DNA of 64,000 nt from Rhodobacter sp. SY28-1 (GTDB taxonomy: Bacteria > Pseudomonadota > Alphaproteobacteria > Rhodobacterales > Rhodobacteraceae), in contig NZ_STGH01000002.1 in assembly GCF_005222785.1 (NCBI RefSeq), positions 248,001-312,000 on the forward strand, written 5' to 3'. Position numbers and translations under genes: made by a program. Within the stretch, counting starts at the first letter, position 1; every line of letters starts with the position of its first letter. This document shows positions 3,889-49,417 of this stretch, piece by piece. The notes under the pieces were generated by a model, which saw nothing but the letters and a program-made list of their open reading frames with translations, did not search any database and was not told where the DNA came from.

Positions 3889-5414
3889 CAGAATGACTCC
3901 AGCGGAAGGGCGAAGGACTTCTTCTTGCCGCCGAACAGGCTGGTCTTGCCAGTTTCGCCCGAGGAACAGCCGTTGCCGTCGGTGAACCCGCAGCCGCCCC
4001 GGATATCCGCGCCGGCTTCGTTCTGTTCGCGGTGCGCGGTGGGGATGGCGAAGCGGTCTTCGTAGTCGGCGATGGCCATGATCTTGTACATGTCCTCGAT
4101 CATCCGGCCCGACATGCCGACGCGGGCCGCGATGCCTTCGTCGCGGACGCCGTCAACGGTCAGCGCCCGCATGTAAAGGCGCATGGCGGACATGCGCTCC
4201 AACGCGTGGACGATGGGTTCTTCGTCGCCTGCCGTCAGCATGTTGGCGAGGTACTGCACCGGGATGCGCAAGCTGCGCACATCGGGCATCTGGTCGCTCA
4301 TCGCGATCTGACCGGCCTGGGCCGCGTTCTGGATCGGCGACAGCGGCGGGATGTACCAGACCATCGGCAGGGTGCGGTATTCGGGATGCAGCGGGAAGGC
4401 GACCTTCCATTCCATCGCCATTTTCCAGATCGGGCTGACCTTGGCGGATTCGATCCAGTCCTCCGGCACGCCATCACGGCGGGCGGCGGCGATCACTTCG
4501 GGGTCGTTAGGGTCAAGGAACACATCCAGCTGCGCGCCGTAGAGGTCGGTCTCGCGTTCCGCGCTGGCGGCGGCCTCGATCTTGTCGGCGTCGTAGAGGA
4601 TCACCCCCAGATAGCGGATGCGCCCGACGCAGGTTTCCGAACAGACGGTGGGCTGGCCGGACTCAATCCGCGGATAGCAGAAGGTGCATTTCTCGGATTT
4701 GCCGGATTCCCAGTTGTAATAGACCTTCTTGTACGGGCAGCCGGTGATGCACATCCGCCAGCCGCGGCACTTTTCCTGGTCGATCAGCACGATGCCGTCT
4801 TCCTCGCGCTTGTAGATCGCGCCCGAGGGGCAGGAGGCGGCGCAGGTCGGGTTCAGGCAGTGTTCGCACAGGCGCGGCAGATACATCATGAAGGTATTCT
4901 CATACTCTCCGTAGATCTGCTTCTGGATGTTCTCGAAGTTGTAGTCCTTGGACCGTTTCGAGAATTCGCCGCCCAGGATTTCCTCCCAGTTCGGGCCCTT
5001 TTCGATCTTCTCCATCCTTTCGCCCGTGATCTTGGAGCGGGGGCGCGCGGTGGGGAAGGCGTTCATGTCGGGCGCGGATTTCAGGTGGTCATAGTCGAAA
5101 TCGAACGGCTCATAGTAGTCGTCGATTTCCGGCATCGAGGGGTTGGCGAAGATGTTCGCCAGAATCCGCCATTTCGACCCCTGCTTGGGGTGCAGCTTGC
5201 CCGATTTCGATCGCGACCAGCCGCCATTCCAGCGCTTCTGGTTTTCCCAGTCGGTCGGATAGCCGGTACCGGGCTTAGTTTCGACGTTGTTGAACCAAGC
5301 GTACTCGACGCCTTCGCGGCTGGTCCAGACGTTCTTGCAGGTGACGGAACAGGTGTGACAGCCGATGCACTTGTCCAGGTTCAGAACTTTGCCGATTTGC
5401 GCGCGAACTTTCAT
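3888..5414 (-). CDS. narH: Respiratory nitrate reductase beta subunit (iron-sulfur)
   Basis: NarH carries electrons from NarI haem to NarG through four Fe-S clusters. The cysteine groups are visible in order: CIGCHTCSVTCK at residues 16-27, CEHCLNPTCAASCP, CRGWRMCITGCP and CTFCYPRI with CSETC. Trp replaces one Cys in the third group, as expected for the [3Fe-4S] cluster. Length 508 matches the family. The start overlaps the narG stop as ATGA. The Cys/Gly-rich C-terminal stretch (GGCGFTDGNGCSSGE) is common in alphaproteobacterial NarH. Confidence 0.97.
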   Translation of the reverse strand: MKVRAQIGKVLNLDKCIGCHTCSVTCKNVWTSREGVEYAWFNNVETKPGTGYPTDWENQKRWNGGWSRSKSGKLHPKQGSKWRILANIFANPSMPEIDDYYEPFDFDYDHLKSAPDMNAFPTARPRSKITGERMEKIEKGPNWEEILGGEFSKRSKDYNFENIQKQIYGEYENTFMMYLPRLCEHCLNPTCAASCPSGAIYKREEDGIVLIDQEKCRGWRMCITGCPYKKVYYNWESGKSEKCTFCYPRIESGQPTVCSETCVGRIRYLGVILYDADKIEAAASAERETDLYGAQLDVFLDPNDPEVIAAARRDGVPEDWIESAKVSPIWKMAMEWKVAFPLHPEYRTLPMVWYIPPLSPIQNAAQAGQIAMSDQMPDVRSLRIPVQYLANMLTAGDEEPIVHALERMSAMRLYMRALTVDGVRDEGIAARVGMSGRMIEDMYKIMAIADYEDRFAIPTAHREQNEAGADIRGGCGFTDGNGCSSGETGKTSLFGGKKKSFALPLESF

Positions 5415-8400
5415 TCCGCTGCCTCCACATTGCGGGTTGCGGGCGTATCCAGCCAGTCAACTTTCTTCATTTTCCGCACGATCACGAACTCGTCGCGGTT
5501 GCTGCCGACGGTGCCGTAGTAGTTGAACCCGTAGGACAATTGCGCATAGCCGCCGATCATGTGGGTGGGCTTCAGCGTTGTGCGGGTGACCGAGTTGTGG
5601 ATGCCGCCGCGATTGCCAGTCTTTTCCGATCCGGGCGTGTTCACGATCTTTTCCTGCGCGTGGTACATGAAGAGCGTGCCCTGCTTGATGCGCTGGGACA
5701 CCACCACCCGCGCGGTCAGCGCGCCGTTGCTGTTGTAGGCCTCGACCCAGTCGTTATCGACCAGCCCGGCCTTCTTGGCATCGACCTCGGACATCCAGAC
5801 CACCGGCCCGCCGCGGTTCAGCGTCAGCATCAGAAGGTTGTCTGTATAGGTGGAATGGATGCCCCATTTCTGGTGCGGCGTGATGAAGTTCAGCACGACA
5901 TGCGGGTTGCCCTCGGCTGCGTCGTTGTTGACGGCCTTGGTGATGGTCTTCAGGTCCACCGGCGGGCGATAGCTGACGAAACCTTCGCCGAAGGCCCGCA
6001 TCCAGAGGTGATCCTGATACAGCTGCTGGCGGCCGGTCAGGGTGCGCCACGGGATCAGCTCGTGCACGTTGGTATAGCCCGCGTTGTAGCAGACCGTTTC
6101 CGATTCAATCCCCGACCAGGTGGGACTGGAGATGATCTTGCGCGGTTGCGCCGCGATGTCGCGGAAGCGGATCTTGGTGTGATGCGCGCCTTCGGCAAGG
6201 TGGGCATGGTGGCGGCCGGTGGGTTTTTCCAGCTCTTCCCACGCCTTGACGGCCACTTCGCCGTTGGTTTCGGGGGCCAGCATCAGGATCATTTCCGCCG
6301 CCTGAATAGCGGTATCCAGCTTGGCGAGACCATGCGACACGCCCTCATCGTGCACCACGCCGTTCAGATCGCGCAGCAGGCCAACCTCGACCTTGGTATC
6401 CCAGTTGATCCCCTTGCCGCCGTTGCCGAGTTTTTCCAGCAGCGGGCCGACCGAGGTGAACTTCTTGTAGAGGTTCGGATAATCCCGCTCGACCGCGATA
6501 TAGTTCGGCGCGGTCTTGCCGGGGATCAGGTCACATTCGCCCTTCTTCCAGTCGCGGACATGCGCCTGCGCCAACTCGCCGGGGGTGTCGTGCAGCAGGG
6601 GAAGCTGGACGATGTCGGTCTCAACCCCCAGCACTTCCGGGGCGACTTCGCTGAACTTCTTCGCGATGGACTTGAAGATTTCCCAGTCGGATTTCGACTC
6701 GTAGGCCGGGTCCACCGCCGCCTGCAGCGGGTGGATGAAGGGGTGCATGTCGGACGTGTTCAGGTCGTCCTTTTCGTACCAGCTGGCCGTCGGCAGCACG
6801 ATGTCGGAATAGACGCAGGTGGTGGACATCCGGAAGTCGATGGTCACCAGCAGGTCAAGTTTTCCCTTCGGCGCCTCGTCATGCCAGACGGCCTCGACCG
6901 GCTTGGCGTGACCTTCCTCGCCCAGATCCTTGCCCATCACGCCGTGATCGGTGCCCAGCAGGTGCTTGAGGAAGTATTCATGCCCCTTGCCCGACGACCC
7001 CAGCAGGTTCGAGCGCCAGACAAACAGGTTGCGCGGCCAGTTCTCCGGGGCGTCCGGGTCTTCGCAGGACATCTGCAGACGGCCTGCCTTCAACTCCTCG
7101 GCCACATAGGCCGGAATGGCCTTGCCTGCGGCCTTGGCCGCTTTCGACACCTCCAGCGGGTTGGTCTTCAGCTGCGGGGCCGAAGGCAGCCAGCCCATCC
7201 GTTCGGCGCGGATGTTGTAGTCGATCAGGGAGATATCCCAGTCGCCCTTGGGTGCGGTCGGCGACAGGATCTCGCCCGCGCGGAGCGTCTCATAGCGCCA
7301 CTGGTCGGTATGGGCATACCAGGCAGAGGTTGAGTTCATGTGCCGCGGCGGGCGGTTCCAGTCCAGCGCGAAGGCCAGAGGTGCCCAGCCGGTCTGCGGG
7401 CGCAGCTTCTCCTGCCCCACATAATGCGACCAGCCGCCGCCTTCCTGACCGATGCAACCGCACATCACCAGCATGTTGATGATGCCGCGGTAGTTCATGT
7501 CCATGTGGTACCAGTGGTTCAAACCGGCCCCGAGGATGACCATGCTTTTGCCATGGGTTTTTTCGGCATTGCCCGCGAATTCCCGCGCGACGGCGATGAT
7601 CTTCTCGCGCGCGACGCCGGTGATCTTTTCGGCCCACGCCGGGGTATAGGGGCTGTCGTCGTTGAAGTCCTTGGACACCCATTTGCCGCCAAGACCCCGG
7701 TCAAGGCCATAGTTGGCGCAGAAGAGGTCGAACACCGTGGCGACCAGTGCCTGCGACCCGTCAGCGAGGGTCACGCGGCGGGCTGGGATATTGCGGGTCA
7801 ACACCTCGGGGTGGTCGCATTTCACGAAATCGCCGGTTGCGACGCCGCCGAAATAGGGGAAGTCGACGCCGACAACCTCGTCATGATGCTCGTCCAGGAT
7901 CTGGCTGAGCCGCAGGTTCGCCTCGGCCCCCTTGGCACGTTGTTCCAGGTTCCACTTGCCCTCTTCGCCCCAGCGGAAACCGATGGAGCCGTTGGGGGCG
8001 ACGATCTGGCCCGAAGCCTCGTCATAAGCGACCGTCTTCCAGTCGGGGTTGTTGGTTTCGCCCAACTGACCCGCGAAATCCTCGGCCCGCAGCATGCGGC
8101 CGGGGACAAGGTGGCCGTCGCGGTCTTCCAGCCGGACCAGCATCGGCATGTCGGTGTATTTGCGGGCGTAGTCCTCGAAATACTCGGCCTGCCGATCCAG
8201 GTGATATTCGCGCAGGATCACATGGCCCATCGCCATCGCCATCGCCGCATCGGTGCCCGCCTGCGGGTTCAGCCAGATGTCGCCGAACTTGGCCGCTTCG
8301 GAATAGTCAGGGCTGACCACGGCGGACTTGGTGCCGCGATAGCGGACCTCGGTGTAGAAGTGCGCGTCAGGCGTACGGGTCTGCGGGACGTTCGAGCCCC

Positions 8401-20103: not shown

Positions 20104-20796
20104 ATGACCCGGGGCGATGTTCTGGTAACGGTGCAGGGCGTGGCAAAGCACTACGGCTCGGGCGAAACCCGCGTCGACGCCCTGCGCGCCGTCGACCTGC
20201 AAGTCCGCGCGGGCGAGGTGATAGCACTTCTGGGCCCTTCCGGCTCGGGCAAAACCACGCTTCTCAACATCATCGGCTGCATCCTTGCCCCGTCAGCGGG
20301 CCGGGTGGAACTGGACGGTGACCCGGTGTTTGACGGCAAATGGCTGCGCAGCGACCTGCGGCGGCTGCGACTGGACAAGATCGGCTTCATCTTTCAGGCG
20401 CACAACCTCCTGCCCTTCCTGACCGCCGAAGAAAATGTCTCCGTCGTGCTCGACCTTGCGGGCTGGCCTGCCGCCAAGGGCCGCGCCCGTGCGCGTGAGT
20501 TGCTTGACTACCTCGAAGTCGGACATCGCGCATCGGTGAAGCCAGCACTTCTGTCGGGAGGAGAAGCGCAGCGTGTGGCCATAGCACGCGCCCTGGCCAA
20601 CCGACCACGGATCATCCTTGCAGATGAGCCGACCGCTGCCCTGGACAGCGGGCGCGCGCAGCTTGTTATGGACCTGTTGCGCAAGCTCGCGACCGAACAG
20701 GAAGCCTGCATTATCGCCGTCACCCATGACGAAAAGATCTTCGACCGCTTCGACCGCCTGATCCACCTGCGCGATGGTCGCCTCGTGGACAGCTGA
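20104..20796 (+). CDS. ABC exporter ATP-binding protein, DevA/LolD type
   Basis: The 230-residue ATPase shows Walker A GPSGSGKTTLLN, Q-loop FIFQAHNLLPF, signature LSGGEAQRVAIARAL, Walker B IILADEPTAALD and the switch His in AVTHDEKIF. It powers the permease encoded just upstream; the set resembles DevBCA exporters. The substrate is unknown. Confidence 0.93.
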   Translation: MTRGDVLVTVQGVAKHYGSGETRVDALRAVDLQVRAGEVIALLGPSGSGKTTLLNIIGCILAPSAGRVELDGDPVFDGKWLRSDLRRLRLDKIGFIFQAHNLLPFLTAEENVSVVLDLAGWPAAKGRARARELLDYLEVGHRASVKPALLSGGEAQRVAIARALANRPRIILADEPTAALDSGRAQLVMDLLRKLATEQEACIIAVTHDEKIFDRFDRLIHLRDGRLVDS

Positions 20797-20811
20797 ACAA
20801 AGGAGAAGGCC

Positions 20812-21189
20812 ATGTCACCCCGCACCCGTTCTGTCACTGCTGCCGCCATAGTTGCCGTCATTTTCGGGCTTTTGACGATCTTCTCCGGCGGGCGCGCCCT
20901 CTTTGCGGGGGCCGACATGGGTGCTGTTGTGCCCTTAGTGCTGTGGTTCAACTTCCTCGCCGGGTTCGCCTATGTCGTCGCGGGTCTTGGCCTTTGGTAT
21001 CGCACAAGCTGGGCGACCAGCCTTTCGATCGTCATCGCATTGGCAACCGCAGCCGTCTTCGCCACCTTCCTCTGGAAGGTCTGGAGCGGGACACCATACG
21101 AAGCGCGGACCATGGGTGCCATGGGGCTTCGCCTTGCCACTTGGGTGGCAATCTCGATCGTCGCTGTCAGAGGCGGTCAGGCGCGCTGA
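20812..21189 (+). CDS. Four-helix membrane protein of unknown function
   Basis: This 125-residue protein has about four hydrophobic helices (residues 8-30, 39-62, 67-88 and 104-120) and few polar residues. GGAG lies eight bases before the ATG. It is the last gene of the exporter row and may belong to it. I do not recognise a specific family. Confidence 0.75.
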   Translation: MSPRTRSVTAAAIVAVIFGLLTIFSGGRALFAGADMGAVVPLVLWFNFLAGFAYVVAGLGLWYRTSWATSLSIVIALATAAVFATFLWKVWSGTPYEARTMGAMGLRLATWVAISIVAVRGGQAR

Positions 21190-21409
21190 CGTTAAGCGAC
21201 TTTGTGTCCCGTTGACGAGTGGCGGAGCCAGAGGCGCATCGGACGCAAGCCACCGTGCTGTCAATCATCTTGGGCGTGGGAATCAGTTTGTATCGTTCAT
21301 CGCCTCCATGGTCGCTTCCGATAGCCCGGCTCTTGCACAGAATCGAAAGCAGCAGTGGCAGCGAAGGTCAGCTTTCCGCCCTGTGCGAAGGCGACCGCTG
21401 TCTCGACAT

Positions 21410-22447
21410 TTATTGTAAGTCGTGCCGTCGACGCGCCGCCGGCCCCAACGACTGTGACACGCCGAACGCCTTTCCAGTGAATAAGAACACAGGATGTTTT
21501 TCACGCTGGCTCGCTATGTAGGTCGCGACATTTAGCGCTCCCGCCTTTACCCAGCGTTGATCGACCACAGTGATCATCCAACCTCCACACTCGGACCGAG
21601 CAAGGCATCGACGGGTCCTGGTGGCAGTCGCATGAGCCCTTGGGCTGCCTGTCAGGCGCTCAACCAGGCGCAGAAACTGCTCAACGAAATAGGTCGGCCA
21701 ATATATCAAGATATGCATGTGGGATCCAAGCCGTTTGCCAACATCCCGTGCCCAGATTGCTGCAAACGGCAGTCCGATGGCCCGTAAACGTCGTGCCAAC
21801 TCAGTACGCACGTAAACTTCACGACGTCCAGGCGGGCGCCATAGGCAGTGACCCTCTTTGACGTCTGCGGCAACGATCAGGGCGTGCCACGTTATGGTGA
21901 GATGGCAGTTGAGCGGCCAGTCCATCCTGTAGGCGAACTCGACCGCGCTTACTGCTTGCTGGTACCGCCTCTTCGCATCCCGCCTCTCGTACCTTGGGGA
22001 GCGACCTTTTGCGACCGCGTCCATTCGTTGCTGCAGAGGTCCAGCCGATGCGGGCAATCGGGAAGCCGCAATGCCAGTGTGCTCTGCGACGCATTCTCTG
22101 CTTACTTCTCCACTTACTATAGGAAGGCTCGCAGCAGATTCCGCGCTATTGAGCGAACTACAGAGGTTTTCAGCGTTTCTGCTTGCATCGACCGTCGCCA
22201 GTTCTGTCACACTTGGGGGGACTATTCGCGCCCGCGGGTCGCCGACGATCTCCTCAAAATGGGCATTAGCGTCGACGTGACGAGGGATCTTGGTGTCTCG
22301 GGAGTTTGACCGCGACGGGGATAGACCCTCCTCGTCGCAAGTGTTGTGTAGGATTGACCGATCAACTGCTTGTGTTTCGGGATGTTTGTCCCCAGGGGAC
22401 TGGCGAGCCGGGCTACGCAACCGGTTGGAGTGGTGCGGCCGGATCAT
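21410..22447 (-). CDS. HUH-like replication protein of a small integrated element
   Basis: The 345-residue protein has a long, poorly ordered basic N-terminal half and a conserved C-terminal half. That half contains LTITWHALIVAADVKEGHC, LPFAAIWARDV and GSHMHILIYWP, whose HxH matches the HUH motif of rolling-circle replication and relaxase proteins. TYIASQREKH downstream could supply the catalytic Tyr. The ATG at 22447 overlaps the alpA stop as ATGA; an upstream start at 22504 lies inside alpA and is rejected. Similar proteins accompany AlpA and integrase genes in alphaproteobacterial islands. Nicking activity is inferred. Confidence 0.55.
   Translation of the reverse strand: MIRPHHSNRLRSPARQSPGDKHPETQAVDRSILHNTCDEEGLSPSRSNSRDTKIPRHVDANAHFEEIVGDPRARIVPPSVTELATVDASRNAENLCSSLNSAESAASLPIVSGEVSRECVAEHTGIAASRLPASAGPLQQRMDAVAKGRSPRYERRDAKRRYQQAVSAVEFAYRMDWPLNCHLTITWHALIVAADVKEGHCLWRPPGRREVYVRTELARRLRAIGLPFAAIWARDVGKRLGSHMHILIYWPTYFVEQFLRLVERLTGSPRAHATATRTRRCLARSECGGWMITVVDQRWVKAGALNVATYIASQREKHPVFLFTGKAFGVSQSLGPAARRRHDLQ
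22347..22363. repeat. 17-base direct repeat, copy 1
   Basis: TGTAGGATTGACCGATC recurs at 24078-24094 with one mismatch (T for C) in the same orientation. This copy lies in the 5' part of the replication-like gene; the other is just upstream of the integrase. Confidence 0.75.
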
Positions 22448-22635
22448 TTGATCCTTGCCGCCTTGGCCTGTTCGATCACAGCCAAGATTTCCGATTCTGG
22501 CCACCTAGAGAGACCGCCGAGCTTCACCGGTTTGGGGACAGTCCCGTCTGCGACGCGACGCCAGAAGGTCGGTACGCTGATCTGAAGAATTCGCGCGCTT
22601 TCACGCACTGTCAGGAGTGGATCTACAATTCCCAT
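22444..22635 (-). CDS. AlpA-family helix-turn-helix protein (excisionase/regulator)
   Basis: The 63-residue protein is a MerR/AlpA-type DNA-binding domain: LLTVRESARILQISVPTFWRRVADG, then PKPVKLGGLSRWPESEILAVIEQ. AlpA proteins control the neighbouring integrase and act as excision factors. It is coupled by ATGA to the downstream replication-like gene and follows the integrase on the same strand. Confidence 0.85.
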   Translation of the reverse strand: MGIVDPLLTVRESARILQISVPTFWRRVADGTVPKPVKLGGLSRWPESEILAVIEQAKAARIK

Positions 22636-22849
22636 AGGTTTGCCTCAAGTCGCGTTGCCATGAGGTGAGTCTAGTTGCGCGTCATTGAGCTAAGGAAGTC
22701 CACCAGACGGCCAAACGCATGGCCAAGCTGTGGCGAACGCTAACAGTACTTTCCTTAAACTATTGATTTTAGGAATACATTTTCCATGCACTTTGCATCT
22801 TGCCGAAGGCATCGATGATCATCGTGTAGTCCCTGGCCCCGGAACGGCA

Positions 22850-24046
22850 TCATTTAGAAGCCATAGCCATTTTCACTACCGCGCCGTTGTGACCGGTGAC
22901 ATGTAATGCCCATCGCTCCATAATGATGCGCCGTTGCTCCAGAAAGTCAGTTCGCCGGTAAGCGCGCTCTACGGCACTGCCGACCGTATGTCCCAGACAG
23001 GTTTCTGCGATGTCGCGCGGAACGTCCGTCGCTTCTGCAAGCCAAGTCCGAAGACTCGAACGGAACCCATGCGGCCGGGCTTTCATTCCCCGCCGCTCCA
23101 TCAAGCGAGCCATCGTTGCATCGGATAGTACTCCGTTGCGGACGCTGGGAAACATCACGCCATCTCGGGCTAGTCGTTTGGCTTGATCTATGACCGACAA
23201 AGCTTCAGTCGATAGCGGCACACGAAAATCCGGGGTCGAATCCCGACGTCCTTTCATGCCCTCTCCGGCTACCGTCCACACATCATCCTCAATCTGAGCT
23301 AGGTGCATATTACGTACGGGGCCAGGCCGCATGCCTGTCAGGATTACCAAGCGCAATGCAAGGTGCGCAGGAGTGCCATCTGAAAGAGTTCCATAGAACT
23401 CCGGAACCTCTCGCCAATGCAGAGCAGGGATGTTCTCCGGTTTGTGACGCTGCCTGCCCAACAAAGCTACTGCTTTTGCTATCGCTTGAAGGTCGACGTC
23501 CAAGCCTAAGGCCGCGCCGTGCTTCAGGCAAATGCCAAGCCGATTAATCGCTTTGCGGGCGGTTTCCGCCTTGGTGTGCCAAATTGGCGCCAGCACGTCG
23601 CGGATGTCATTCTGGTCGATCTCCGCGACCGGGATCTTGCCCAGCTTTGGAAGCACGTGCAGTTCGAGGGGGCTGAACCACCTGCCGTTCGCACCGTCAC
23701 CCTTAAGTTCGGCCTTTCGGCTTTCAAAGGCGTCGACGGCGATGTCCTTAAGCAAATGCATATTGCGAGCCGCTTCTCGGCGCAAACGTTCTCGCTCTTT
23801 TATCGGGTCTTTGTTTTCCCGTACCGTTGCCCGCCACTTGTCTGCAGCTTCGCGGGCCTCTTTAAGCGAGACGTCAGTCAAGGCTCCCAGTCCCATCTCG
23901 CGCCGTCGCCCGTGGATCGTTACGCGGAGAACCCATTGCGCTCCGCCGTCCTCTCGCTTGTACAGCCAGAGCCCGCCGCCGTCTGCATACTTGCCTGTCT
24001 GGCAGGAACGAACCTTTGCTGCACTGAGCCTGTTCAGAAGGCGCAT
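22850..24046 (-). CDS. P4-type tyrosine recombinase (integrase)
   Basis: The 398-residue protein has the P4-integrase N-terminal domain (KYADGGGLWLYKREDGGAQW), a core-binding part and a catalytic domain with TGMRPGPVRN (Arg), HGFRSSLRTW (HxxR), LGHTVGSAVERAY (His and the nucleophile Tyr). All catalytic residues are present, so it may be active. The ATG at 24046 with AGGGGG upstream is preferred to 24130. It drives integration of the small element at about 21.2-24.3 kb. No tRNA target was found beside it. Confidence 0.9.
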   Translation of the reverse strand: MRLLNRLSAAKVRSCQTGKYADGGGLWLYKREDGGAQWVLRVTIHGRRREMGLGALTDVSLKEAREAADKWRATVRENKDPIKERERLRREAARNMHLLKDIAVDAFESRKAELKGDGANGRWFSPLELHVLPKLGKIPVAEIDQNDIRDVLAPIWHTKAETARKAINRLGICLKHGAALGLDVDLQAIAKAVALLGRQRHKPENIPALHWREVPEFYGTLSDGTPAHLALRLVILTGMRPGPVRNMHLAQIEDDVWTVAGEGMKGRRDSTPDFRVPLSTEALSVIDQAKRLARDGVMFPSVRNGVLSDATMARLMERRGMKARPHGFRSSLRTWLAEATDVPRDIAETCLGHTVGSAVERAYRRTDFLEQRRIIMERWALHVTGHNGAVVKMAMASK

Positions 24047-24077
24047 TATTCTATCCCCCTTTGTATCCCCCCCTAGA

Positions 24078-24094
24078 TGTAGGATTGACTGATC
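24078..24094. repeat. 17-base direct repeat, copy 2
   Basis: TGTAGGATTGACTGATC, 32 bases upstream of the integrase start, matches 22347-22363 at 16 of 17 positions. It could be a recombinase arm site or an AlpA site. Confidence 0.75.
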
Positions 24095-24253
24095 CGAAAA
24101 GATAGGCGGGGAGATAGCTTGAACCAACAAAATCAGGCACTCTGACGATCACTAGGTATCAATAAGACCGCCTGATGATCGACGAGCTCTGCATATAGAC
24201 GTATTCAATGCTGGCTCTGGGCACCACCTCTCCCCCAAACCGCACCAACTCCG

Positions 24254-24271
24254 CGCATGACGCGTCATGCG
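24254..24271. repeat. Perfect 18-base palindrome
   Basis: CGCATGACG followed directly by its complement CGTCATGCG, with no spacer, lies in the gap upstream of the dynamin cluster. A dimeric regulator site or part of a recombination site are both possible. Confidence 0.6.
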
Positions 24272-24395
24272 GGCGTCTCATTTCGGTCAGGGCGGCGTCC
24301 GAAGCAGGGCCGACCCGGCCAACCGATGCGACGGTCGCAGGGCAGGGTTCGGGTCGCCGAGTATAATATGACTATTTCATAGATTCATCCAAACT

Positions 24396-25274
24396 TTGCC
24401 TCAATCGACTTTTACCTCCGCCGAGGGAACAACGCTGCCTGGGGGGCGGATCGACGTGCACGCGGTAGAAATACCGTCGGTGGAATATGCTGCCTTTAGA
24501 GGCACATACCGGCTGGAAGACGCAGGCCCGAACGCAGCGGCCGGAACTGGCGGCATCGAGGCCGAGGTCGCCCGGATCTGGGGTTTGGTCCGGCGGATCG
24601 ACGCCGCGCGCATCATGGTCCTGCACCATCTCGACCGCTGCTGTGTCGCGGCCGGAAGCCTGCTGATCGACGGACAGAAGGGGTTGAACATCGGCTTTCT
24701 GATGCCGACCCTGAGGGGCGAGATTGCCGAAGTTGAGGCAGGGCCCTTGCCGGATTTTCTGCCCGCCGGTGACCTCTACCAGGTGCTCTGGGCCCTGGCG
24801 AGCCGCATGTCCCTGGTCGAGGCCGAGCGGGTCTATCTTCTCGACGCAGGTGACCGCCTGCCGATCCTCGTCCGCCGCGACGGCTTTGCCCTGCCCCCGG
24901 AGATGACGCCCGACACAGTCAGATCGGCCGTCTCGGCGGCCGCGAAGAAGGGACGCGCCATCCGCTACAGCCTGGCCGAGGCGCCGGACACCGGCTGGGG
25001 ACCGACCCAGCCCGTCGCGGCGCTGCTGGCGGATGACCTTTCGGGCACCGATATCCGCATTGGAGGCGATTGCTGGCCAACCGCCCTGCCGGGGTCGGCC
25101 AGCCTTGCCGAGGTGCGGCTGGCCATGACACTGGTCGAGGCCCTGGGCCCGCTTGATCCTGGCCCTGACTGCCGGTTGCAGGTGCTGGGCGCCGGGTCGC
25201 GCATGATTGCAAGCGTAACGAATGATGCAGGCAGTTGGGCAGTTCGCCTCACGCCGCCGGGAGTTGTGAAATGA
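24396..25274 (+). CDS. Unrecognised protein heading the dynamin/roadblock cluster
   Basis: A 292-codon frame with good coding character follows a TTG at 24396; no ATG is in frame before residue 73, and an in-frame TGA lies at 24369. The 5' end is therefore either non-standard or damaged, perhaps by the neighbouring element. The product has no membrane segment. It contains RIDAARIMVLHHLDRCCVA and LYQVLWALASRMSLVEAERV and appears mixed alpha/beta. The stop overlaps the start of the first dynamin-like gene (AATGATGG), so the two were one operon. I do not recognise a family. Confidence 0.55.
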   Translation: MPQSTFTSAEGTTLPGGRIDVHAVEIPSVEYAAFRGTYRLEDAGPNAAAGTGGIEAEVARIWGLVRRIDAARIMVLHHLDRCCVAAGSLLIDGQKGLNIGFLMPTLRGEIAEVEAGPLPDFLPAGDLYQVLWALASRMSLVEAERVYLLDAGDRLPILVRRDGFALPPEMTPDTVRSAVSAAAKKGRAIRYSLAEAPDTGWGPTQPVAALLADDLSGTDIRIGGDCWPTALPGSASLAEVRLAMTLVEALGPLDPGPDCRLQVLGAGSRMIASVTNDAGSWAVRLTPPGVVK

Positions 25275-27333
25275 TGGAAACGCGCATGAAGATCACTCTG
25301 TCGCCGCCCACCGCCTGTCGGCGCATCTTGCCTCGATCAGGTCGCTGCTTGACCGGCTGGAAGATCTTGTCGTGCCCGAACGCCTAGGCGTGGCTTCAAG
25401 ACTGGTCCGGGACATGGGTGCCTTCAGCGCCAAGGTCTCGTTGATCGGGCAGGTCAAGGCCGGCAAGACCAAGCTGACCAATGCCCTGACCGGCATGCCG
25501 GAAATGCTGCCCTCGGACGTCAACCCCTGGACCTCGGTCGTGACCTCGATCCATGTCAACACGCCCAAGCCGCGCGGGTCGGATGCGGTCTTCACCTTCT
25601 ACACGGAAAAGGACTGGGCCGAGCTGACCGAAGACGGCGACCATCTTGGCAAGTTGGCGCAGCGCGCGAACTTCGAGGCCGAACAGGACGAGATGCGTGC
25701 GCAGATCAGCGCGATGCGGGCCAAGACCGAAGCGCGGCTGGGCGCGAACTTCAGCTTCCTCCTGGGATAGCAGCACCAGTTCCGCGGCTTCGGGCCGGAC
25801 CTGCTGGAAAAATACGTCTGTCTGGGGGAAGACGGCGAGGTAACTCAGGCCAGCGGCCGCTATGCCGACGTGACCAAGGCGGCGGACCTGTACATCGATT
25901 CGGCCGACTACATCCTGCCGACCACGATCAGCGGCACACCCGGGGTGAATGATCCATTCCTTGCCCGCGAACGGGCCACGCTGGGCAAGACCGACGTCTG
26001 CGTCATCGTCCTGTCCGCGAACCAGGCCTTCAGCACCGTCGACCTTGCACTGATGCGCGTCCTGATGGCGATGAAGGCCGAGCAGATCATCCTGTTCGTC
26101 AACCGGGTGGACGAGCTGGAAAACCCCGATGTGCAGATCCCCGAGATCGACGCCTTCATCCGCGGGGTCCTGCAGTCGAAGGGGATCCGAACGCGGGTTC
26201 CGATCATCTACGGCAGCGCGGTCTGGGCCGAACTGGCCATGCGCGGCGAACAGTCCACGATCCCCCGCGCCGCACTGCAGCGGCTGATGCTTCTGGCCGA
26301 CGCCCGCGTGGTTCGCGCCGGAAAGACCGGGACGGGTGACAAGTTGCACCTGGGACAGCCGCCCTACAGCACCGACAAGATCCGCGACCTGTCGGGCATC
26401 AGCGAGCTGAAGAACCTCATTACCCACAAGTCGGTGATGAATGTCGGCGCGCCCTTCGCCGCTGATGTCCTGGTGCGGGCAACCGACGTGGCGCAGCAGT
26501 CGATCATCCTGTTGTCGGACACTCTCGACGGCGAACTGAAGATCAGGCCGAACCTCGACATGAACGCGATGATCGCGCGGATGCAGCGGCTTCTGCACGG
26601 GCTGGAGGTCGACTTTCCGCAACTGGCCACCACGATCACCGAACGCATGCTGATCAAGATGTCGACCGCCTTCCGCGAGTTCATCGACCACGAAAGCGCG
26701 CGGCTGCGCGACATGGCGCTTGACGGGAACCGGATGACCACTTGGTCGCCCGACACCGACCATCTGCGCACCGAGCTGAACAACGCCTACCACGCCTTCG
26801 CGACCGAGATGAGCGAAGACATCGGCGCGATCTATGAACGGACCGCCAATTCCATCAGCGCGATCTATGCTGAAATCCTTGACGGCCAAAGCCAGCTGTT
26901 TTCGGTGCAGGCCCCGCAATTGTCCGAGCCGAAGACACCGCCGACCCTGATGCGGACGATGAGCTTCGACGTCAAGACATCCTGGATCGGCAGCTGGCTG
27001 GCAAAAGCCACCGGACCAGCCACGATGATAAAACGGCTGAATGATCTTGTTACCTCCGAGATGGTGAATTTTCTCGACGAACTGCGCAATGAACATGTCT
27101 CGGACTTTGTTCACGCTGCCCGCCAGACCCTGCATGCGTTTCTTGTCGAACATCTGGAAACCTTGCAAAAGCTGGCGTCTGTCGATGGGGCCGCCCGTGG
27201 CAATCAGGCGCGGCAAAAACTGGGAACTGAAATTGAGGTACGGAAGCGGCTTGTTTCACTGAAAGGTCTCCTGTCGGAATTGCAGGCCCAGACCGAAGCT
27301 GTCGTTGCGGACTTTCGGTTGAAGCGCAAATGA
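25271..27333 (+). pseudogene. Dynamin-like GTPase A, interrupted by an in-frame TAG
   Basis: About 687 codons encode a dynamin-family GTPase: P-loop GQVKAGKTKLTN, a Thr-bearing loop PSDVNPWTSVV, G4 FVNRVDELEN, then long helices for the stalk and the C-terminal stretch VNFLDELRNEHVSDFVH. The reading is broken by TAG at 25768-25770, where the same frame continues at once with QHQFRGFGPDLLEKYVC; CAG would restore it. The coupled ATG at 25271 is in a different frame from the GTPase, which points to a one-base deletion near 25285. The G3 loop reads SGTPG where DTPG is expected. Without the ATG start, a GTG at 25372 is the next candidate. Confidence 0.75.
25768..25770 (+). other. In-frame amber codon in dynamin-like gene A
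   Basis: TAG separates FSFLLG from QHQFRGFGPD in one continuous frame with conserved sequence on both sides. A single C-to-T change from CAG explains it. Confidence 0.85.
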
Positions 27334-28484
27334 CGGACATCATATCGCAGCGGGCGCGGGCCTATCTTGCGGCCTGGCACTCGCGACGGCCGACGCTTGC
27401 CTTGATGGGGGAATTCAGCTCGGGCAAGTCGGCCCTCTTGAACTGCCTCCTCGACCGCCGGCTGCTGCCCACCCGGGTAACTGCAACCGACATGCCGGCG
27501 ATCTGGATCAGCCATGGCGCGACGGAGCGGGTGACCGGGCTTGGCTTCGACGGCCACCTCGTCGAACTGACGATGGCCGAACTGACCGAAGGCCAGGCGA
27601 TGCGGTTTCTCTGCATCCGGATCGAGATCGATGCGAAGATCCTGGAACGTGTCGATATCATTGATACTCCAGGCATTTCCGACCCGCGCATGACGACGGA
27701 CATCGTCGAGGAAGTGGCGCGGAACGTCGATTTCGTGGTCTGGTGTTCGCCGATGACGCAAGCCTGGCGGCAGACGGAGCGAGCGTTCTGGAAGGCCCTG
27801 CCCGACAGGATCAAACTCGCCAGTATCCTGGCGCTGACCCGGGCCGACCTGATCGCCAGCACTAGGGACACCGACAAGGTGATCCGGCGCTGCACGGCGG
27901 AATCCGACGGCAGTTTTTCGGCCGTTCTGCCCGTTGCCGCCCCCTTGGCAGCCAAGGCCAAGGCCGCTTCCAGCGATTAGGACCGAGCAGACCTGATGCG
28001 GGCAAGCGGGATTGCAGAGTTTTGCCTGAAGCTTGACCAATCGGTCGCCGAAGCCGAAAGACTTTGCGCTGCCCACACACTGGTTGATGAGCCGGTTGCG
28101 CTAAAAATCCTGCCGCTGACCGCTGATATGCGGGAGCGGTCAGAAAGCGTGATTTCGAAGAAAAAGACGCCCTCCGCCAAGGCCGCGCCGAAGGCTTCTC
28201 AGAAGCGGATCTGGGGAATTGATTCACTACTGGAAGTTGTCAAAAACTTCCCACCAAATGAGCAAGGATTGGACATAATCCGCCATCTTCTTAACCAAAA
28301 GTTAACCGAAAAACCAGTCACTGTCGAGCATCGGGACGTTCTTGTCCGGGCTTTGACCGGAAGTGCGATTGGTGCAATGAGCGTTGAGAAGTTCTTGAAG
28401 CAGGTAGAGCATGAAGTTCAAGACTTTGCTGACGGCCCTTGGTGTGACCTCCGTCCGCAAGCCAACCAAAGAGAGCGCGGTTGA
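27330..28484 (+). pseudogene. Dynamin-like GTPase B, interrupted by an in-frame TAG
   Basis: The frame starts four bases before the end of gene A (ATGA overlap). It shows P-loop GEFSSGKSALLN, G3 IIDTPGISDP and G4 LALTRADLI, all intact. TAG at 27978-27980 interrupts it after AKAASSD; the same frame then runs 168 more codons beginning DRADLMRASGIAEF. The full product would be about 383 residues, short for a dynamin, with a compact helical tail. The end overlaps the roadblock gene by 74 bases. Paired dynamins with shared operons usually work as hetero-oligomers on membranes; that role is inferred here. Confidence 0.75.
27978..27980 (+). other. In-frame amber codon in dynamin-like gene B
   Basis: TAG lies between ASSD and DRADLMRASG in one frame, at the boundary between the GTPase domain and the tail. 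It is the second TAG of this kind in the cluster. Confidence 0.85.
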
Positions 28485-28893
28485 AGCAACCGCCGCTGGA
28501 ACCGAAACCGAGGGGCTGGCCCTCAAGAAGGAAAAAGAAATGGCAATTGATCTCAAGGGACTGAACGAGATTTCGGGCTTCATCGCGGGCTGCCTGGTGG
28601 ACAGCGACACCGGCCTGATGATGGCTGCCGAGGGCAGCGGCTCGTTCGACATCGAGGGTGCAGCCGCAGCGAACACCGAAGTGGTGAAAGCCAAGCGCGC
28701 CGCGATGAAGATGCTGAAGCTGAGCGATCACATCGAAGACATCCTGATCTCGCTGGGCAAGCAGTATCACCTGATCCGCCCGATGGAAAAGAACCCGGCA
28801 GTCTTCATGTACGTCGCCCTGGACCGCAAGGCCGCGAACCTGGGCATGGCCCGCGTTCAGGTCAAGAACATCGAGCAGGCTCAGTCGTTCTGA
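28411..28893 (+). CDS. Roadblock/LC7-domain protein
   Basis: The 160-residue product has a basic/acidic leader of about 42 residues and then a roadblock/LC7 domain: LNEISGFIAGCLVDSDTGLMMAAEG, split at the usual strand turn, and a C-terminal half ending in ALDRKAANLGMARVQVKNI. These domains regulate small GTPases, as MglB does for MglA. Codon use favours this frame in the overlap with dynamin gene B; a start at 28537 with AAGGA upstream would give just the domain. It is the only undamaged gene of the cluster, and a strong hairpin follows it. Confidence 0.8.
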   Translation: MKFKTLLTALGVTSVRKPTKESAVEATAAGTETEGLALKKEKEMAIDLKGLNEISGFIAGCLVDSDTGLMMAAEGSGSFDIEGAAAANTEVVKAKRAAMKMLKLSDHIEDILISLGKQYHLIRPMEKNPAVFMYVALDRKAANLGMARVQVKNIEQAQSF

Positions 28894-48626: not shown

Positions 48627-49417
48627 ATGAGGGTAAGTGCAAAAATTGTTGTTATTGCAGGTCTTTTTCTCGCTTTTCTTTATGGTCTTAATTTCATTTA
48701 TGCGGTGTCGAAGGGCAAAGAAGGTGGCACGTTTGGAGATACCTTCGGCGCAGTGAACGCACTATTCTCTGGATCAGCTTTGTATTTTCTTGTGCTTGCC
48801 TTTTTTCTCAGCGCGAGGAGTTAAGCATCATGCGAGAAGAGCGCAACGAGAACCGCAAATTAGTGTCTGAGCAACAGAAACTGTTCGGCGCACAGAAGAA
48901 CGCGCTCGACAAACAAGTGTTCGAACAATCATTTTACTCACTGCTTTCTTTGATAAATCAGGAAAAGGCTCGCCTTCTGAAAGACAATCCGCGCGCAAGA
49001 ATCCAGCTACCTGAAATTCAAAGGATCAGTGGTGCCGTCAATGATCTCTTGCTTAACTTTGCTATTGAATCGCAGTTTGATCCAGCGAAGAAATTGGAAC
49101 TTGATCTGTTGGCGGATCAGTCCTTCAACTTAGTAAATTTGCTTTCATCTTTGGTAGATTTAGTTGAGAATTTTCACGGCAACGATGCTGAGAAGTCTCG
49201 GTACTTTTCCATGGTACAGGGGTTGATTGACTATCATATCGCAGTTTGCTTTTCTTGGTTTCATGGCTGTAGCGGGGGACAGAACAAAGAAATTGCGCGC
49301 GCGTACTCGAAACTATCAATTCCTTTTTCGACCTCCCCGGCAATTCGAGACGCAATGGATATAATTTTGGCTCGTTTTGAAGGTAAGCGCCCCGCAGCGA
49401 CTGGTGTCGAATACTAG
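48627..49417 (+). pseudogene. Putative phage abortive-infection (putAbiC-like) protein, frameshifted
   Basis: The first frame gives 65 residues: a membrane helix (VVIAGLFLAFLYGLNFIYA), the motif GGTFGDTFGAVNALFSGSAL and a second helix, then a stop. A -1 shift at a run of six T (about 48801-48806) would continue directly with QREELSIMREERNENRKLV and the frame ending at 49417, including VFEQSFYSLLSLIN and the later helical part. Two N-terminal helices with GTFGD, a coiled region and FxxxFYxLL are the layout of the putative AbiC family. Lower GC than its neighbours and surrounding REP elements mark it as acquired. Programmed slippage rather than decay is possible. Confidence 0.6.

Follow-up and report, generated by a model that had tools for sequence, protein, structure and literature searches.

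Roadblock proteins are regulators of Ras-like GTPases and also subunits of dynein, and regulators of the roadblock/longin type are regarded as small-GTPase partners. What turns bacterial dynamins on and off is, to our knowledge, little known. Some of these dynamins belong to the LeoA/LeoBC defense system, which is also called Eleos. Here we describe a locus of Rhodobacter sp. SY28-1 in which a roadblock gene shares an operon with two dynamin genes. The locus lies at 24396-28893 of the analyzed stretch of 64,000 nucleotides (contig NZ_STGH01000002.1), which we call the window. Its genes are termed G1 (an unrecognized protein), D1 and D2 (a large and a short dynamin-like GTPase), and RB (a roadblock protein).

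In the excerpted text of PMC6104087, most bacterial genes for dynamin-like proteins (DLPs) are paired within operons, and the DLP pair of Campylobacter jejuni tethers membranes. For the roadblock protein MglB, an excerpt of PMC4316618 counts 328 of 749 homologues without a coupled MglA. An earlier note on the window had called a roadblock partner for dynamins undescribed. This agrees with our search of the open-access PMC literature, where titles and the starts of abstracts gave no paper linking a bacterial roadblock protein to a dynamin. The word “dynamin” is absent from the main text of PMC4316618, and both “roadblock” and “dynamin” are absent from that of PMC7159879. The lone occurrence of “dynamin” in PMC6785124 and in PMC9481161 is in the title of a cited assay.

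The locus, we believe, is probably the degraded copy of a module conserved in Rhodobacteraceae, whose MglB-type roadblock protein has a heterotypic dynamin-like GTPase pair as its partner. Judged from sequences and predicted models, the established parts of this reading are the gene order, the roadblock fold, the D2-RB fusions, the contrast with Ras-like GTPases, and an occasional neighborhood of kinase, PP2C, and FHA genes.

Recurrence of the roadblock-dynamin neighborhood

A genome collection was scanned with an RB alignment, using no dynamin sequence. This gave 419 related loci, and the best 80 were analyzed. A D1-D2 pair adjoins RB on the same strand in 43 of the 80, and five more are partial. 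The gene order is that of the window, D1-D2-RB, in 27 of the 43 loci and RB-D1-D2 in 16, with two dynamin pairs following RB in 13 of these 16. Of the 27 window-order loci, 14 have an open reading frame (ORF) of 263 to 320 codons at the position of G1, and seven of these match the window G1 (tblastn, 1e-5).

As a second sample, we used 248 Rhodobacteraceae genomes, roughly one per genus, which overlap the collection in some species. RB was present in 15 of them. Reading off coordinates, we found RB within 6 kb of a D1-D2 pair in 11 of these 15 genomes, the window genome included, and for 13 of 22 RB matches; the RB-bearing genomes without this proximity are G001, G074, G208, and G265. By our own arithmetic, with two or three pairs per 4-Mb genome, chance would place RB this close in about 1% of cases. 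The dynamin-dynamin-roadblock association proposed in the earlier note is therefore found in other genomes as a recurring gene neighborhood, and there it is mostly intact.

In five genomes, D2 and RB are joined in one frame with RB at the C-terminal end (Table 1). One of the fused proteins is part of the D2 profile, whose end therefore overlaps RB. In a Pfam scan done separately, Dynamin_N was found at the N terminus above the cutoff of 27 bits in four fusions (34 to 51 bits), and the HTM 045 fusion scored 18.5 bits. The Oceanobacillus title of the HTM 045 record (L096, WNWL01000004.1) is probably mistaken.

Table 1. Features of the locus, D2-RB fusions of other genomes, and adjoining mobile-element genes (window positions or locus)
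Feature	Position or locus	Strand	Remarks
G1, unrecognized protein	24396..25274	+	open frame, 292 codons from TTG
D1, large dynamin-like GTPase, broken	25271..27333	+	P-loop kept, start frame lost, G3 = GTPG
TAG inside D1 frame	25768..25770	+	
D2, short dynamin-like GTPase, broken	27330..28484	+	Dynamin_N 54.3 bits
TAG inside D2 frame	27978..27980	+	
RB, roadblock protein, open	28411..28893	+	domain 28537-28890 after N-terminal extension
D2-RB fusion, Rubricella aquisinus	L087		420 aa
D2-RB fusion, Litoreibacter metagenome-assembled genome	L095		502 aa
D2-RB fusion, Loktanella sp. D2R18, second pair	L082		426 aa
D2-RB fusion, G129	L185		467 aa
D2-RB fusion, record titled Oceanobacillus HTM 045, placed in window's family	L065/L096		473 aa
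Integrase of neighboring mobile element	22850..24130	-	phrog_1, E 5.7e-42
Excisionase/regulator-like protein, same element as integrase	22444..22635	-	phrog_66, E 7.5e-8

RB as a roadblock protein

The window RB scored 14 to 15 bits against the Pfam profile Robl_LC7 (15.1 in the family test), which is below the Pfam cutoff of 23. Matches at E values up to 1 were obtained for 10 of 42 aligned RB relatives, the best at 0.0012. When the RB profile was run against the sequences in the Protein Data Bank (PDB), the roadblock protein 7yh1 appeared at E 0.26, ranked under ribosomal L7/L12 (E 0.17), and the RB alignment had no meaningful match in NCBIfam. We modeled RB as a single chain with AlphaFold2 from an alignment of 58 sequences (about 80 were available). 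The model has a pLDDT of 93 and the topology H-EE-H-EEE-H. Its best PDB match is Myxococcus MglB (6izw_C, E 5.8e-7, TMq 0.76), and further matches are Streptomyces roadblocks, archaeal roadblocks, and LAMTOR proteins. By its predicted structure, RB is a roadblock-fold protein and is MglB-like.

The N-terminal extension of RB (window 28411-28536) opens with a short, amphipathic-looking, KFKTLLTALG-like stretch. By eye, this stretch is seen again in the linkers of kinase-RB proteins (L068 and L070) and, at several dynamin loci, ahead of RB, and it is possibly a membrane or docking helix. An N-terminal extension is also found in some RB homologues and ahead of RB in kinase-RB proteins. The Ruegeria loci L105, L106, L110, L117, L133, L140, L144, and L146 have RB with the extension and no dynamin match nearby; in L105, the genes after RB encode a response regulator and a protein with HATPase_c, of the histidine-kinase type.

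The model of G1 has hints of roadblock/longin-like folds at both ends, and G1 itself is possibly roadblock-like. A further candidate is RBx (L067:9986-10357), encoded 3′ of D2 in an FHA/PP2C locus of the same genome as the window and followed by the gene gX (from L067:10392). Judged by eye, the elements of RBx are ordered much as in a roadblock protein. None of 20 RBx members matched Robl_LC7, and the hhalign comparison of RBx with RB was insignificant (E 0.089, probability 0.65%), as were those of G1 with RBx, RB, and gX.

GTPase neighbors of RB inside and outside the family

RB-type matches occur in at least 45 of 299 genomes of a phylum sample and in at least 4 of 385 genomes of a class sample that includes the window genome. 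A D2 search of 26 RB-bearing genomes gave a full D2-type match in G527 only, a family member, and matches of 48 to 55 residues in two genomes. We examined 15 RB flanks, namely 14 that belong to 12 non-family genomes and that of G527. Four neighboring proteins, Ras/Arf-type by Pfam, were used for a small-GTPase profile (A9), with three flanks supplying its rows. Of the 14 outside flanks, 11 have a Ras-like GTPase at most about 1.1 kb from RB, and 8 of 11 do when the row-supplying flanks are set aside; the profile had no match in the outside flanks L177, L179, and L182. At the whole-genome level, all seven outside genomes searched had a small GTPase near RB; three of these genomes were sources of the profile. 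Several outside operons carry a second roadblock-type gene, and Robl_LC7 scores for these were 36.2 (L178), 23.7 (L180), 22.5 (L176), and 20.7 (L173) bits.

In contrast, on the 80 collection loci the small-GTPase profile matched only L138 and L148, both non-family by title, and it found a Ras-like GTPase in none of the 43 dynamin-linked loci. Its search of 17 RB-bearing family genomes gave nothing convincing, with no match in the window genome and five marginal matches elsewhere (E 7e-5 to 9e-4) in frames of 610 to 881 codons. A search of the same 17 genomes with PF00025 returned only frames of at least 362 codons, and its control found the known GTPase in just two of four comparison genomes. 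We also considered whether RB could be a conventional MglB whose MglA is encoded at another genomic site, which neither search supported in the 17 genomes.

As far as sequence can tell, then, family RB has no Ras-like partner that we could find, and a dynamin is its frequent neighbor and occasional fusion partner. The earlier note had raised the case of a roadblock protein always tied to a different GTPase. We see instead that RB outside the family is mostly tied to a Ras-like GTPase, and inside it often to dynamins.

The two dynamins

Window D2 exceeds the Dynamin_N cutoff, and window D1, read across its TAG, reaches 28.4 bits. Among PDB sequences, the D1 and D2 profiles best match the two chains of 5owv, which is the DLP pair of C. 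jejuni. Among the 43 RB-dynamin loci, D1 is one open frame of at least 644 codons with a P-loop and a DxPG motif in 42 (the ORF caller lets a few D1 frames run long), and the sole split D1 is that of L073, on the same contig as L066. The first D2 has a P-loop in 43 of 43 loci and a DxPG match in 35 by the pattern used.

In a D1 tree, which was built by a quick method and has long branches and rows mostly picked from RB-linked loci, the RB-linked D1 proteins are spread over several deep branches. The window D1 belongs to a branch with 100% support; of the 19 rows on this branch, 16 are of the D1-D2-RB group. The nearest kin of the window D1 is L073.

In the RB-D1-D2-D1-D2 clusters, a P-loop is present but a DxPG match absent in the second D2 of 13 of 13 loci (L080, L092, L093, L107, L111, L114, L115, L121, L123, L132, L134, L136, and L145). 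Its G3 site reads EVP, EIP, or ELP in the four that were inspected. These sequences suggest that the second D2 of double-pair clusters may be a GTPase-dead partner.

Kinase, phosphatase, and FHA neighbors

The second dynamin locus of the window genome, L067, encodes an FHA protein, a PP2C protein, a P-loop protein (D0), D1-D2, RBx, gX, and motB. The FHA and PP2C proteins exceed their Pfam cutoffs, and the genes after motB look flagellar. A single run in L097 holds RB, FHA, PP2C, proteins of 465 aa (with weak D2 similarity), 132 aa, and 258 aa, a Ser/Thr kinase, D1, and D2. In L077, D1-D2-RB adjoins matches for kinase, FHA, PP2C, D0, D1, and D2. In the window's genus, RB forms the C-terminal part of Pkinase frames (over the cutoff) in the four examined. 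Because of these neighborhoods and kinase-RB frames, phosphorylation is pointed to as a candidate input to the module, in some loci at least.

Some further frames were noted around RB. L070 has a kinase-like frame fused to RB (4845-6326) with a partial and degenerate Pkinase match (44.6 bits), perhaps a pseudokinase-RB protein, and a second kinase-like frame (6674-7741) adjoins it. In L181, a G1-D1-D2-RB locus, a PAS-domain protein (6739-7338; PAS_9, 42.6 bits) directly follows RB and is a possible sensory input.

The copy in the window

The earlier note had described a four-gene operon with overlapping ends, damaged and next to a mobile element, and the window bears this out. By ORF reading, G1, D1, D2, and RB are collinear on the plus strand as one operon. 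D1 and D2 overlap in an ATGA, and the RB frame shares 74 nt with the end of D2. The alignment of homologues makes a G1 start near the GTG at 24456 likelier. The D1 frame that ends at 27333 has no plausible in-frame start adjoining the G1 stop. The nearby ATGs at 25271 and 25274 sit in another frame, so a frameshift in D1 is likely. The window D1 has also lost the G3 aspartate, with aligned homologues reading DTPG at this site.

With two in-frame stops and a lost start, the operon is broken here. The breakage was probably recent, to judge from frames that remain long and open apart from this damage and from the pairwise dN/dS values of the window against the same-genus copy L066. These values were 0.34 for D1 after its TAG, 0.22 for RB, 0.51 for G1, and, for D2, 0.37 before and 0.21 after its TAG (the latter at a saturated dS of 3.8). 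Because both dynamins are broken, the module is probably dead in the window strain. Recoding of TAG was rejected, as TAG also terminates other window genes (7 of 46 crudely called genes, the broken D2 included), and D1 has in addition lost its start frame and changed its G3 motif.

Upstream of the operon, on the opposite strand, lie an integrase gene and an excisionase-like gene (Table 1). The window has no tRNA gene, and a look at 20700-25000 gave no convincing att repeats. Elsewhere in the window, an ORF at 48830-49417 has a third-position GC content (GC3) of 0.48, within a low-GC patch, where most window genes are above 0.7; it was probably acquired recently.

Interpretation and alternatives

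In the module that we propose, an RB dimer would bind D2, its fusion partner in five genomes. RB would then control GTP hydrolysis by D1-D2 or their assembly on membranes, as MglB does for MglA. The kinase, phosphatase, and FHA proteins would supply input, and G1 could be a second roadblock-like regulator or a scaffold. The earlier note had suggested that the roadblock protein could be the GTPase regulator. The five fusions and the lack of a Ras-like partner in our searches favor this as far as sequence goes, and the regulation itself is what we infer. The new part would be the class of GTPase found in a roadblock-GTPase module. More broadly, roadblocks may also control dynamin GTPases, an MglB-like RB having taken a heterotypic dynamin pair in place of its Ras-like partner and forming, with G1 and Ser/Thr kinase, PP2C, and FHA proteins, a phospho-controlled membrane-remodeling switch. 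We give this larger proposal an even chance.

The C-terminal position of RB in four Ser/Thr kinase frames and its place beside kinase, PP2C, and FHA genes in L097 and L077 would also suit a generic dimeric scaffold or phospho-signaling sensor, which recruits dynamins to a site and leaves their GTP cycle untouched. However, the D2-RB fusions and the contrast with Ras-like GTPase operons indicate a GTPase partner, and MglB is a known GTPase-activating protein (GAP) in the excerpted texts of PMC9481161 and PMC11016934. We therefore consider a pure scaffold or sensor rather unlikely.

An accessory or defense role, which the earlier note had thought fitting, found little support. Such an anti-phage system would be a paired-dynamin system like LeoA/LeoBC to which a roadblock accessory has been added. 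The patchy distribution (15 of 248 genomes), the integrase adjoining the operon here, and LeoA model matches on two intact D1 proteins (E 9e-10 and 4e-12) are in keeping with it, but those matches may mean only a common dynamin fold. PADLOC gave nothing for G1 or RB; on the module proteins it returned only dynamin-type matches of LeoA/LeoBC (weaker on D2 and for LeoBC) and one marginal mad8 match. In addition, the paralogous pair in the FHA/PP2C locus upstream of motB looks housekeeping. Taken together, we regard a defense system as improbable. That RB is an orphan regulating a Ras-like GTPase encoded elsewhere, with the dynamin neighborhood incidental, is suggested by the gene pairing outside the family but is very improbable given the D2-RB fusions, an adjacency that spans several deeply diverged D1 lineages, and the 17 RB-bearing family genomes, which have no convincing Ras-like GTPase by our profile or by the agreeing, insensitive PF00025 search.

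Several observations weigh against a partnership of RB with the dynamin pair. No dynamin lies nearby in 32 of the 80 RB loci; in 9 of these 32, the contig ends less than 6 kb away on one side. Family members also have RB as a stand-alone gene (e.g., L094, L098, and L127) or fused to a kinase. RB is thus not dedicated to dynamins. Conversely, D1-D2 pairs occur without an adjoining RB, as in both G034 pairs and the second locus of the window genome. In four of the five fusions (not HTM 045), a Met is kept just ahead of RB, so RB may also be made alone. In 8 of 43 loci, the first D2 lacks a match to our DxPG pattern. The window's genus has two copies, those of the window and G017, and both are dynamin-damaged, the latter possibly by an assembly error. 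The contrast in GTPase neighbors is tempered by the D2 profile, which was used outside the family and so leaves room for other dynamins there, and by the insensitivity of the PF00025 control. Lastly, RB-dynamin binding and altered GTP hydrolysis are drawn from sequence, models, and analogy.

Comparison with known systems

The LeoA/LeoBC defense dynamins share a common dynamin fold with the module, and the LeoA model matches intact D1. PADLOC, however, has no roadblock or G1 counterpart that we found. Cj-DLP1/DLP2 (PMC6104087) are likewise two side-by-side dynamins, and their 5owv chains are the best matches of D1 and D2; the module adds a roadblock gene and G1, and “roadblock” is absent from the main text of PMC6104087.

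Proteobacterial operons of a roadblock protein and a small GTPase contain the same type of RB. Unlike these operons and the actinobacterial conservons (cvnA-D), the RB-dynamin modules of the family have dynamins, with no Ras-like GTPase found, and, in some loci, Ser/Thr kinase, PP2C, or FHA genes.

The RB model is closest to MglB of the MglA-MglB system (Myxococcus and Thermus), which consists of a Ras-like GTPase and its roadblock GAP, and in both cases a small roadblock protein is encoded beside a GTPase. RB differs in that it scores below the Robl_LC7 cutoff, its neighbors are a dynamin pair rather than a Ras-like GTPase, and it is sometimes fused. If the recurrent, sometimes fused roadblock-dynamin module is what it appears to be, RB would be a candidate regulator of bacterial dynamins that can be checked by GTPase assay and an example of a roadblock protein changing its class of GTPase.

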